NCBI RefSeq assembly: GCF_009467825.1
Contig: NZ_WIOK01000003.1
Coordinates: forward strand, 186,001-250,000
Length of the DNA stretch: 64,000 bases
Direction of reading: 5' to 3'
Source: Cyclobacterium xiamenense
GTDB taxonomy: Bacteria; Bacteroidota; Bacteroidia; Cytophagales; Cyclobacteriaceae
In this document: positions 27,698 to 31,840 of the stretch, piece after piece
How the letters are laid out: each line of letters begins with the position of its first letter
Numbering within the stretch: position 1 is the stretch's first letter
The notes under the pieces: model-generated
The model's database searches: none
What the model was told of the DNA's origin: nothing
Seen by the model: only the letters and a program-made list of their open reading frames with translations
Made by a program: the position numbers and the translations under genes

Positions 27698-28801
27698 ATG
27701 AACCAACAGCAAAAAGACAGGAAAGCTTCGCTACTTGCAGCCATCGACCGCTGTGAAAATCCGTACGTTCTTGCCCAGGTAGCGACCCTTCTAAAGCGGG
27801 AGGGGATGCTCCAGCCAATTGGAGAACTAGCCACTGTTTTTCCCATGCTGCTACAGCTGGAATCGACTCGGGACTTATCCTTGCAGACCGGACTAAAAAG
27901 CGAAAACGTAACCCGCCTTTCCCGCTATCAGAATCTTACTGCTGCACCCTTGTTTCTGATCAGTTTGCTGATGCTGCTGATCACGGCAGCTATCCTGAAT
28001 AATTTCTCTGTTGACGAAGCGGGTGTCCACCTGAACCCTTTCCTAAGCAAGTTGGCACAGGTATATGGGATTATTTGGCTGCTGTATCTGGTCGACCTGC
28101 TGCTGGTTCTCTACCTTTCCTTCCGATCTAAAACCAAAATTGCAGGGGCGGCCTTTATTCCCAAACTGCTGAGTCTGGTGTTTCCCCCCTTGGGGATGAG
28201 CCTGCGGCACTATACAGAACCCGACAAGACCTGGTTGCCGGTGTATCATTGGTCTCTATGCAACGAGGGACTGTTGCAACACCTGAAAGAAAAGTTTTCC
28301 GTACCGATGATTGTCGTTGCCTTGTTGATCCTACCTGTGCTAATTATCGAGTGGCAATTTTACGAAGAGGTAGAAGCGTTGCTGAAAACCGACCTTTCCT
28401 TTGTTCTGGATATGGTGCAAGGCTTTATCTGGCTGGCATTCGCGCTAGAGTTTATGCTGCTCGTTTCCATTACCAATGATAAGTTCGGCTACGTTAAAAA
28501 AAATTGGATCGATTTGCTCATCATTGTGTTGCCGTTCATCTCTTTCGTGCGGACCTTGCGGATTTTTAAAGTAGCCCGGCTAACCCATCTGGCCAGGGGA
28601 TACAAGCTACGAGCACTGGTAATGAAAGCAAGACAGGGGCTAATTGTCACCAGTTTCTTCTTTCGATTGCTGGCAATTAAGCCGGATTTTCAACTGAAAA
28701 AACTAAAGAAAAAACTGGACCAAAACCAAGCAGAAAGGGAACGTATCGAAGAGGAACTGGTTCGGTTTGCGCTATGGATCAAGCAAAAAAATCAGCGGTA
28801 A
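27698..28801 (+). CDS. Voltage-sensor-like membrane protein without pore domain
   Basis: 367-residue membrane protein. Residues 1-78 are soluble, followed by two hydrophobic segments (83-101 and 121-141). A four-helix unit follows: 201-219, 235-257 (with Glu251), 269-283 (with Asp272), and an S4-like segment at 285-300 with Arg285, Arg288, Lys291, Arg294, His297 and Arg300 exactly three apart. This is the pattern of a voltage-sensing domain. No pore helix or TVGYGD-type filter follows; instead 330-362 is a highly charged coiled coil ending the protein. Such a layout recalls Hv1 proton channels, but homology is not shown. It could equally be a diverged ion-channel relative of unknown activity. 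Confidence 0.7.
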   Translation: MNQQQKDRKASLLAAIDRCENPYVLAQVATLLKREGMLQPIGELATVFPMLLQLESTRDLSLQTGLKSENVTRLSRYQNLTAAPLFLISLLMLLITAAILNNFSVDEAGVHLNPFLSKLAQVYGIIWLLYLVDLLLVLYLSFRSKTKIAGAAFIPKLLSLVFPPLGMSLRHYTEPDKTWLPVYHWSLCNEGLLQHLKEKFSVPMIVVALLILPVLIIEWQFYEEVEALLKTDLSFVLDMVQGFIWLAFALEFMLLVSITNDKFGYVKKNWIDLLIIVLPFISFVRTLRIFKVARLTHLARGYKLRALVMKARQGLIVTSFFFRLLAIKPDFQLKKLKKKLDQNQAERERIEEELVRFALWIKQKNQR

Positions 28802-28835: not shown

Positions 28836-28843
28836 TAACTTTG
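28836..28843 (+). promoter_or_regulatory. Putative -7 element (TAACTTTG) for the SGNH gene
   Basis: Exact TAnnTTTG match 30 bases before the ATG at 28874. No clear -33 TTTG at the right distance. It favours 28874 over a TTG at 28841 as the start. Confidence 0.45.
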
Positions 28844-28873
28844 GTTGATTCGCGCCAAAACCACACGTTTCTC

Positions 28874-29800
28874 ATGATCTCCAAAGCCATTCTTAGCATT
28901 GCCTGCTATTTCCTGTTGCTTCCACTAGGAGCACAGACGCCCTATTCCATTCCCTCATCGGTAAAAAAAATCCTATTTCTAGGCAATAGCATTACCTACG
29001 CTGGCCAATACCTAACCTATGCCGAAACCTACCTCCGATTGATGCATCCGGACAGAGACTGGGAGTTTTTCAACTTGGGTTTGCCCAGTGAAACGGTCGC
29101 CGGTTTGTCGGAAAAAGGGCATGCGGGTGGTGCGTTTCCCAGGCCGGATTTGCACCACCGCCTGGATGCCGTGCTGGAGGCGGTTGCACCGGACCTGATT
29201 TTCTCCTGTTACGGCATGAACGACGGCATATACCTGCCCTTTGACGAATCCCGTTTTGCAGCCTACAAAGCCGGCCAACAAAAGCTACAAGAAAAAGCCG
29301 AGGCGCTGGGAATTTCCATTATCCATCTGACACCCCCCGTCTTCGACCCCTCCAAGGATCCGGCCTATGCGGTGGTCCTGGACATCTATGCTTCCTGGAT
29401 GGTAAGCCAGCGATACACGGCGGGCTGGAGCGTGATTGATTTGCATTGGCCGATGCGTAAATTTCTGGAAGACCGCAGAGAAGCCGACCCCGACTTTGCC
29501 CTGGCCAGGGATGCGATTCATCCCGCTGAACAGGGGCATTGGCTCATGGCCAAAAGCCTGTTGGAAGGAATCGGCGAATCCAGGTACCTGGAAGCGGAGC
29601 TGCCCGACAGCGCGTTTGTCGCAATTCCCCATGGCCAGGACTTGCTCCCACTGGTCCGTAAAAAGCAGGAGTTAGCCCGAGATGCATGGCTCACCCACAC
29701 GGGGCATAAGCGACCCGGCTTACCTGAGGGTCTGCCTCTGGAACAAGCCCTGTCGGAAAGCGAAGCCTTATTGCAGACCATTTCCGACCTATTGGATTAG
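28874..29800 (+). CDS. Secreted SGNH/GDSL-family hydrolase
   Basis: 308-residue exported serine esterase-type protein. The ATG at 28874 opens a clean signal peptide (MISKAILSIACYFLLLPLGAQ). Block I is LFLGNSITYAGQY with the nucleophile Ser, block III is CYGMNDGIY with the conserved Asn, and block V is ARDAIHPAEQGH with the catalytic Asp and His, so the full triad is present. Family members remove acyl groups from lipids, sugars or cell-wall polymers; the target is not evident. The 3' end overlaps selD, which is convergent, by four bases. Confidence 0.87.
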   Translation: MISKAILSIACYFLLLPLGAQTPYSIPSSVKKILFLGNSITYAGQYLTYAETYLRLMHPDRDWEFFNLGLPSETVAGLSEKGHAGGAFPRPDLHHRLDAVLEAVAPDLIFSCYGMNDGIYLPFDESRFAAYKAGQQKLQEKAEALGISIIHLTPPVFDPSKDPAYAVVLDIYASWMVSQRYTAGWSVIDLHWPMRKFLEDRREADPDFALARDAIHPAEQGHWLMAKSLLEGIGESRYLEAELPDSAFVAIPHGQDLLPLVRKKQELARDAWLTHTGHKRPGLPEGLPLEQALSESEALLQTISDLLD

Positions 29801-30837
29801 GTAAGATCGATGGTGAACGTTGTCTTTGGGAGGATTTCACCGAACGGGAACACCTCATAGCCCTCTTTCTTCATTTTTTCTTCGAAGGATTTTTTTGCCA
29901 GTGGATCCACCGCCATCAGCAAGCCGCCGCTGGTCTGCGGGTCGGCCACCAAGAGCTGATCTTCGTGCCGTTTAACCTGTATGCCCTGTCCGTAGCTATC
30001 CCAGTTTCGGTGCGTACCTCCGGGAATACAGCCAAGTTTGAGGTATTTGTCCACAAAAGGAAAGCGCGGCACCTGCTCCATTACCAACCTTGCGGAGAGG
30101 CCCGAGCCTTGACACATTTCGGTGAGGTGCCCGCCCAACCCAAATCCGGTCACGTCTGTCATGGCGTGAACTTCGGACCAGGACGCCACCGTAGCCCCGA
30201 TGGTGTTGAGCTGCAACATGGCATTTTTGGCCAGTACCAGGTCCGCCGCTTCCGCCAACCCTTTTTTCTCGGCAGTGGTCACCATGCCCACCCCCAGAGG
30301 CTTGGTCAGGTACAGGAGGTCCCCTACGTTGGCCCCGTTGTTACGTTTTACCTGGGAACTCGGTATTTTTCCGGTCACTGCCAATCCAAAAATCGGCTCC
30401 GGAGCGTCGATACTGTGCCCACCGGCAAGCGGAATCCCGGCGCGGTGGCAAACAGCGCGTCCCCCCTCAAGCACCCGGCTTGCCACAGCAGCCGCCAACT
30501 TGTCGATGGGCCATCCCAAAATGGCAATGGCCATCAAGGGTTGGGCGCCCATGGCATAAATATCGCTTAGTGCATTGGTAGCAGCGATGGCACCAAAATC
30601 AAACGGGTCATCTACGATGGGCATGAAAAAATCGGTGGTACTTACGATGGCCGTTTGGCCATCCAAATCAAATACCGCCGCATCGTCGCTTTCTTCATTG
30701 CCTACCAAGAGCCCGGGAAACTGAACACCGGATGGCTGTTCCTGATGCAACATTTCGGCCAATACCGCCGGAGAGATCTTGCAACCGCATCCTGCTCCAT
30801 GACTGTATTGCGTTAATTTAATGGGTTCGCTTTCCAT
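29797..30837 (-). CDS. selD: Selenide, water dikinase
   Basis: Makes selenophosphate from selenide and ATP, the selenium donor for selenocysteine and 2-selenouridine. The 346-residue protein has the catalytic N-terminal motif HGAGCGCK with Cys17, Cys19 and Lys20, so it uses Cys rather than selenocysteine at the active site. Further family segments are the DDAAVFDLDGQTAIVSTTDF metal/ATP region, GGHSIDAPEPIFGLAVTG and MTDVTGFGLGGHL. It overlaps the end of mnmH upstream by 20 bases, so the two are translationally linked and form a dedicated tRNA selenation unit. No selA or selB is visible in the window. Confidence 0.96.
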   Translation of the reverse strand: MESEPIKLTQYSHGAGCGCKISPAVLAEMLHQEQPSGVQFPGLLVGNEESDDAAVFDLDGQTAIVSTTDFFMPIVDDPFDFGAIAATNALSDIYAMGAQPLMAIAILGWPIDKLAAAVASRVLEGGRAVCHRAGIPLAGGHSIDAPEPIFGLAVTGKIPSSQVKRNNGANVGDLLYLTKPLGVGMVTTAEKKGLAEAADLVLAKNAMLQLNTIGATVASWSEVHAMTDVTGFGLGGHLTEMCQGSGLSARLVMEQVPRFPFVDKYLKLGCIPGGTHRNWDSYGQGIQVKRHEDQLLVADPQTSGGLLMAVDPLAKKSFEEKMKKEGYEVFPFGEILPKTTFTIDLT

Positions 30838-31840
30838 AGTTGATTAGTAATTGTGCGGTTTCTTCCAAATTTTCGCCGGTCAGGTAAAATTTTTCAACGA
30901 CTTTATCCGATTTTTGTTGGATTCCTTTCCGATAGGCCCGGTCGTAATAGTTCAATACGATCGCCGCTGCTTTTCCTAGTTCACCCTCCTCCACACATGC
31001 GATCGCCTCGCCGGTATTCGTAACTCCCAGCTTCCTGGCGATACCCCGTATGGCCGTAATTAGCTTGTCTTCCGAAAGCTGACCGTAATCACGAAGCAGC
31101 ACATCAATCCGTTTTTCGAGGGGAAGCTCCAAGTGGTAATGCGGCGCTAGCTGCATGTTGCGGTACAGCGGCTCTATCAAATGTACCCTCCCGATGGAAA
31201 ACGACTCGTCTTCGATCCACACAGGCTTTTTGGGATCCAAGGCCAGAAAAGCCTCAAACAGGTCGTTTTGAAATTGCTCGGTGGTAGGTTGTCCCGTACT
31301 GAGTTGGTTTCCAAAGCTGGATCCCTGATGATTCGCCAGGGCCTCCAAATCCACTACCTGCTCACCCGTCAGGCGAAGTTGCTTGAGCATGGCGGTTTTC
31401 ATGGAGCCAGTAGCGCCTGTAAGTACCCGTAAGGGAGGTGGGTCTTCAAAATAGCTCAGCAAGGAGTTCCGGTACGCTTTGTATCCCCCTTTCATGATCC
31501 ACACGGAAAATCCATACAATTCCAACAGCCAGGCAATGCTTTGGGAACGCATACCTCCCCGCCAACAATGCACCAGAAAATGCTGCGCATCAAAAGCTAC
31601 AGCCCGTTCGATAAAATCCGCCATTTTCGGCCCGGTGATCCGTAATCCTTCGCTGATGGCTGCCTGTTTTCCCTTTTCCTTATACAGTTTTCCGATGGTT
31701 TCCCGCTCCGTGTTTTCAAAAAGTGGAAAACTGACTGCGCCAGGTACATGCCCCTGCTCGTACTCCGCCGGCGAGCGGGTATCCAACACGGGAAATGCCT
31801 GCTTGTGCGCTAAAAATTCACGGGCTTCAATTTCTTTCAT
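30818..31840 (-). CDS. mnmH: tRNA 2-selenouridine synthase
   Basis: Converts 2-thiouridine at tRNA wobble position 34 to 2-selenouridine via a geranylated intermediate (gene also called selU or ybbB). The 340-residue protein has an N-terminal rhodanese domain with the catalytic Cys92 in LVHCWRGGMRSQS, and a P-loop domain from about 135 with VVDLEALANHQGSSFG downstream. The P-loop reads GATGSMKT at 142-149: Met147 replaces the Gly expected before Lys in Walker A. The rest of the family pattern is preserved. Coupled to selD by a 20-base overlap. Confidence 0.93.
   Translation of the reverse strand: MKEIEAREFLAHKQAFPVLDTRSPAEYEQGHVPGAVSFPLFENTERETIGKLYKEKGKQAAISEGLRITGPKMADFIERAVAFDAQHFLVHCWRGGMRSQSIAWLLELYGFSVWIMKGGYKAYRNSLLSYFEDPPPLRVLTGATGSMKTAMLKQLRLTGEQVVDLEALANHQGSSFGNQLSTGQPTTEQFQNDLFEAFLALDPKKPVWIEDESFSIGRVHLIEPLYRNMQLAPHYHLELPLEKRIDVLLRDYGQLSEDKLITAIRGIARKLGVTNTGEAIACVEEGELGKAAAIVLNYYDRAYRKGIQQKSDKVVEKFYLTGENLEETAQLLINYGKRTH

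Follow-up and report, generated by a model that had tools for sequence, protein, structure and literature searches.

What could a voltage-sensor domain do in a bacterial protein that has no pore? The question is raised by a gene in a 64,000-nucleotide stretch of the genome of Cyclobacterium xiamenense (contig NZ_WIOK01000003.1, positions 186,001 to 250,000; hereafter the window), which encodes a predicted pore-less voltage-sensor protein of 367 amino acids (Table 1). The first-pass annotation had described a four-helix sensor (S1 to S4) followed by a coiled coil, in the layout of Hv1 proton channels and preceded by a soluble domain and two extra membrane segments. On its own, the protein matches nothing in Pfam, in NCBIfam or among PDB sequences up to E 10. 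The window's genome contains one match to the gene. Stops fill frame 1 of the reverse complement.

Residues 189-310 match the profile of bacterial six-helix channels (hhalign 98.6%, E 7e-16). The protein is thus a member of the voltage-sensor superfamily that lacks a pore. Profile comparison shows residues 200-305 to be a voltage-sensor domain with the same origin as that of these channels, and a comparison of folds gives this tentative backing. Conservation was counted over an alignment of 56 homologues, which belong to Bacteroidota, Pseudomonadota and Planctomycetota. This set leaves out the true channels (L018-L023 and L036), loci of genomes already represented (L024-L029), 19 further duplicate loci, one broken gene (L071) and one gene with an in-frame stop (L078); L157 and L158, found later, are also outside it. 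The residues of the charge-transfer centre are near-fixed (F248 and E251 in 56/56, D272 in 54/56). Among the S4 charges, R285 is kept in 54, R288 and R300 each in 52, and Lys or Arg at 303 in 55 of the homologues. E251, D272 and the S4 residues at 285, 288, 291, 294, 297 (His) and 300 lie where they had been annotated, and K303 extends their three-residue register. Such a run of seven, His counted, is matched in 6 of 20000 shuffles of the window protein. Four R/K at every third residue, considered as evidence, were discarded as not remarkable; 1284 of 20000 shuffles reach such a run, and the case therefore rests on conservation and not on periodicity.

S4 and S3 vary in several members. Nine R/K in a row at exact three-residue spacing, a longer run than the S4 of the window protein, are present in a Granulosicoccus member (L031, 4862-5911). 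The S3 aspartate is replaced by N (L073) or E (L074, L157 and L158) in divergent Pseudomonadota. The length of S4 differs from that in the window by 0, 3, 6 or 9 residues in 50/56 homologues. Growth of S4 by three-residue steps was considered and rejected: the tree needs nine changes for nine length labels and five labels (1, 4, 7, 10 and 17) are not multiples of three, so an excess of such steps is not demonstrated.

The absence of a pore and the presence of the coiled coil, both claimed in the first-pass annotation, hold throughout the family. The tail beyond R305 comprises 57-85 residues in all 56 homologues, which is too short for S5, filter and S6; this succession of a six-helix voltage-gated channel is found in none of them, nor is any K+ or Na+ filter string present after S4 (56/56). 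The best 19-residue hydropathy in the tail ranges from 0.69 to 1.46 across the 56, compared with 2.58 for S1 of the window protein. The Ion_trans (PF00520) channels L018, L020 and L036 share with the family an aromatic residue and an acid in S2, W-I-D in S3, a short S3-S4 turn, arginines at every third residue of S4 and the profile match given above. In these channels, S4 leads on to a pore region that includes a filter-like stretch; this is so in none of the 56 homologues of the window family. A heptad pattern begins at residue 330 in all 56 members and is reached by at most 29 of 1000 shuffles (at most 8 of 1000 in 55 of them). It is as expected for a dimer coil, and the protein would accordingly be dimeric. 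The C-terminal phosphatase domain of voltage-sensing phosphatases is lacking; its place is taken by the heptad-coil tail, and the window protein has no Pfam match. There is thus good support for a pore-less voltage-sensor domain followed by a C-terminal coiled coil.

Hv1 has E in S2 and D in S3, like the window family. The two are also alike in a pore-less S1-S4, F in S2, arginines in S4 and a coiled coil, and the layout part of the proposed likeness stands. According to the excerpted text of a 2023 review, a carboxylate in the middle of S1 sets the proton selectivity of Hv1, and its S4 carries the motif RxWR (PMC10377628). Neither feature was found: Asp or Glu at 201-217 of S1 and RxWRxxR/K in S4 each occur in 0/56 homologues. 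Since both are absent in 56/56, the protein is not an Hv1 channel, and membership in that family, as judged from the alignment, fails on the two tested features. This weakens the claim of a proton current and leaves the voltage-sensor claim untouched. As far as Hv1 is described in the same excerpts, the window family is unlike it in four respects: it lacks the S1 aspartate, lacks RxWR, has two additional helices and is bacterial (PMC10377628).

Human TMEM266 is the nearest functional parallel found. This sensor-only protein has a pore-less S1-S4 and a dimerising C-terminal coiled coil, both shared with the window family, and gave no proton current, according to the available portion of its description (PMC6392501). 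It differs in having about 250 further C-terminal residues and in not being bacterial, and extra S1-S2-like helices are not mentioned in that portion (PMC6392501).

The two extra membrane segments ahead of the sensor (helices A and B) are present as annotated and look like a degenerate copy of S1-S2. In helix B, position 127 is W, Y or F in 54/56 (M or L in 2), position 130 is F or Y in 55/56 (P in 1), and position 133 is an acid in 56/56 (28 D, 28 E). This spacing equals that of W245-x-x-F248-x-x-E251, and for this reason the front and sensor halves were compared. Residues 74-163 were aligned with 193-279 by hhalign (93.1%, E 3.3e-7), which pairs helix A with S1, helix B with S2 and LLSLVFP with LLIIVLP of S3. 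Repetition on the window columns gave 93.3% and a score of 43.6, compared with 19.1 for the best of 200 column permutations within segments and 11.0 for a reversed profile. Against the sensor, 47 clusters of neighbouring proteins, not picked as membrane proteins, scored at most 18.8. With disjoint taxon sets, the Bacteroidota front against the sensor of the rest scored 31.9 and the front of the rest against the Bacteroidota sensor 28.7 over similar spans; the front of the rest against its own sensor scored 37.8. A remade alignment pair (30 and 32 of the same members) gave 82.8% and 35.4. The front half also matched five channels at 38.3, with permutations at most 19.5.

Helices A and B are therefore interpreted as the likely, though not proven, S1-S2 of a second, degenerate sensor; this likeness is new here. 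Residues 148-170 align with the turn between S3 and S4, either in the sensor or in channels, and could tentatively be named S3-prime. Position 166 is R in 41/56 (G in the window) and position 170 is R in 40/56; a relict S4 would be reduced to the PPLRxGxR stretch. Several results weigh against a duplication. Within Bacteroidota, front against sensor scored 22.0 only; the helix A/B profile against 30 Pfam-chosen channels scored 16.2, below the best permutation (23.6); Ion_trans was absent among the listed Pfam families (25 of 30) for 30 front halves; and no sensor was among 9 PDB sequence hits of the front half. These results would be expected if A and B were an unrelated helical hairpin with a chance aromatic and acid. 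The hairpin explanation appears rather doubtful in view of the scores against the protein's own sensor domain and the five channels, each well above its permutations, the low scores of the neighbour clusters and the persistence of the match between disjoint taxon sets. Two-pore channels and four-domain Nav/Cav channels have more than one voltage sensor per chain, each followed by pore helices; the window family would share with them several sensors per chain, with no pore after either.

Two helices are predicted in the annotated N-terminal soluble domain (Table 1), and residues 38-70 have a predicted local distance difference test score (pLDDT) below 50 in the predicted structure. The stretch (about 1-70) is absent or unaligned in most members outside Bacteroidota.

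The window protein is probably, at modest confidence, a dimeric stand-alone sensor of membrane voltage, its voltage response being predicted from these features. Upon a change in membrane potential, S4 arginines 285, 288, (291) and 294 would step past the F248/E251/D272 charge-transfer centre, as the near-invariance of these residues suggests. The movement could be passed to the post-S4 helix and the C-terminal coiled coil, which would pair two subunits. Because no pore domain is encoded, the output would not be ion flow through a pore; instead, the cytosolic coiled coil, or else its partner, would change. The relict S1-S2-S3-like sensor ahead may add the fixed intramembrane carboxylate 133, for packing or as an extra counter-charge. 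The chances are about even for the whole description, that of a bacterial family of pore-less tandem sensors in three phyla, each with a degenerate, carboxylate-bearing S1-S2-S3 joined to a complete S1-S4 and a coiled coil that dimerises.

Part of the evidence counts against a working sensor. Positions 285, 288, 300, 303 and 305 are kept in at least 52/56 homologues (Lys counted at 303 and 305), and 291, 294 and 297 are variable; two planctomycete members (L087 and L090) have lost most of their outer S4 charges. Loss of the arginine spacing in homologues had been named in advance as grounds for abandoning the voltage-sensor interpretation, and it is partly observed. The protein could accordingly be a former sensor turned structural or signalling scaffold, with S1-S4 kept for folding and dimer presentation and no response to voltage; its patchy presence (2/395 Bacteroidota genomes sampled; 30/245 in its family, one broken) would agree with this. 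An unused charge path would drift, and F248, E251, D272, R285 and R288 have hardly done so, which makes a scaffold unlikely. If the sensor itself were a voltage-gated conductor of protons or cations, as Hv1 is, D/E133 or E218 would stand in for the S1 aspartate; such a conductor would suit the layout and the carboxylate at 133 in all 56 members. The absence of the S1 acid and of RxWR in all 56 homologues speaks against it, as does the lack of proton current in the pore-less TMEM266 in the portion cited (PMC6392501). According to the excerpts of the review, a filter needs at the least a carboxylate that points towards the narrow part of the pathway (PMC10377628); to serve as one, 133 would have to point there. 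A conductor is quite improbable. A role as auxiliary subunit, paired with a pore protein that the cell makes separately, could be envisaged from the two Ion_trans proteins in the window's genome. It is very unlikely, as no neighbour is shared at a constant place beyond close kin, except in one pair of loci.

The stand-alone sensor, the preferred interpretation, has a patchy distribution that is yet spread over three phyla. At E 1e-3, matches were obtained in 20 of 59 genomes, a total that includes the window's own; 17 contain the family at near full length and 3 only a weak match to a true channel. When the genomes of 84,980 species were scanned, 13 loci emerged, of which seven are in Bacteroidota, three in Granulosicoccaceae-type Pseudomonadota and two in Planctomycetota, and one is a true channel (L036). 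Profile searches found members in 30/245 genomes of the own family (one broken), 2/395 of the own phylum, 4/274 of the class and 3/299 of the phylum of G451, and 17/294 of the phylum of G452, in overlapping samples whose hits include the window's genome (family and phylum samples) and the centre genomes G451 and G452. In the tree, a single starred group unites three members from Pseudomonadota with two from Planctomycetota; within it the phyla are interleaved, and the inner forks are not all starred. The interleaving suggests transfer between phyla, of which several long branches make us unsure. Two members are broken, L071 (G504) in several frames and L078 (G1137) by an in-frame stop; some genomes therefore seem able to do without the gene.

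Hydropathy and loop charges bear on the membrane topology. With 19-residue spans and a cut-off of 1.2 or more, peaks are located at 82-100, 122-140, 148-166, 200-218, 240-258 and 271-289, and a weak one (1.21) follows S4 at 315-333. On average, inner loops are net basic and outer loops net acidic. These charges fit an inside N-terminus, six spans and a cytosolic location of the S4 end, linker helix and coil.

Table 1. Window coordinates of the sensor gene and of the predicted features of its product
Feature	Position	Strand	Residues and remarks	Basis
Whole gene, predicted pore-less voltage-sensor protein	27698..28801	+	367 amino acids	ATG start, open reading frame translation
N-terminal soluble stretch	27698..27907	+	1-70; predicted helices 3-18 and 22-34; mainly Bacteroidota members	
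Extra membrane helix A	27929..28003	+	78-102; aligned with S1 (S1-prime)	predicted helix, profile alignment
Extra membrane helix B	28037..28129	+	114-144; aligned with S2 (S2-prime); W127-x-x-Y130-x-x-D133	predicted helix, profile alignment
Intramembrane carboxylate D133	28094..28096	+	D or E in 56/56	alignment
Short hydrophobic stretch and conserved FPPL(R)xGxR region	28139..28207	+	148-170; G166 and R170 in the window	
Predicted beta hairpin	28226..28258	+	177-187; W179, P181 (56/56), W185 (54/56)	
S1	28295..28357	+	200-220; E218 at outer end (E in 53/56); acid at 201-217 in 0/56	
S2	28403..28471	+	236-258; W245-x-x-F248-x-x-E251 in 56/56	
S3	28502..28546	+	269-283; D272 (54/56), P279 (56/56)	
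S4	28544..28612	+	283-305; R285 R288 K291 R294 H297 R300 K303	
Helix after S4	28601..28678	+	302-327; position of channel S4-S5 linker	
Coiled-coil helix	28682..28795	+	329-366	

In the window, the sensor gene lies between an Exo_endo_phos gene and a GDSL-type lipase gene (28841-29800), which begins 42 bases beyond its last sense codon. In all nine further Cyclobacterium-type loci that were compared (L024-L029, L124-L126), a GDSL homologue occupies the same place after the sensor gene. Comparison covered 49 neighbourhoods (the window and 48 loci; the sensor gene was recognised in 48 and missed in L105) in four groups: Cyclobacterium, other Bacteroidota, the Planctomycetota sample and Pseudomonadota. 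A conserved partner gene was sought and rejected, no neighbour being kept across groups: of 72 clusters present in at least two loci, 6 occur in more than one group and one of these at a constant place (+2; 233 and 243 amino acids, L117 and L098).

Histidine kinases are common genes. Members of one histidine-kinase cluster are found at most four genes from the sensor gene in four loci (L098, L106, L107 and L117); in L106 two of them lie directly upstream of it, 9 bases apart. A Pfam scan of 30 neighbour proteins (five from the window, 25 from relatives' loci) revealed no theme among the relatives' 25 beyond two histidine kinases. In the planctomycete-sample locus L100 (5338-6438), the sensor gene is followed by one for a Na/Ca exchanger, which occurs once among the 30 proteins scanned. 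An AIR-synthase-type gene and a rhodanese-domain gene overlap on the minus strand of the window (29797-31840); the pair looks like one for selenium handling and tRNA modification.

The excerpted 2023 review, with reference to database searches, holds that no voltage-sensing domain without a pore is known from prokaryotes, that Hv channels are absent from bacteria and archaea, and that Hv originated in an early eukaryote (PMC10377628). A pore-less sensor that is conserved in a marine bacterium and in relatives of three bacterial phyla contradicts the statement on pores, as it is worded in those excerpts (PMC10377628). No bacterial pore-less voltage sensor was among the literature matches listed, which covered titles and abstract openings, with bioRxiv and most subscription papers outside the scope. 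The family offers an example from bacteria of the way in which a sensor could serve in the absence of a pore. Signalling by membrane potential occurs in bacteria, and to our knowledge few direct protein receptors of voltage are known; the window protein is a testable candidate for such a receptor and comes from a genus that has named strains. If the interpretation as tandem pore-less sensors is true, the family would provide a bacterial receptor of membrane potential and a natural voltage sensor freed from its pore outside eukaryotes.
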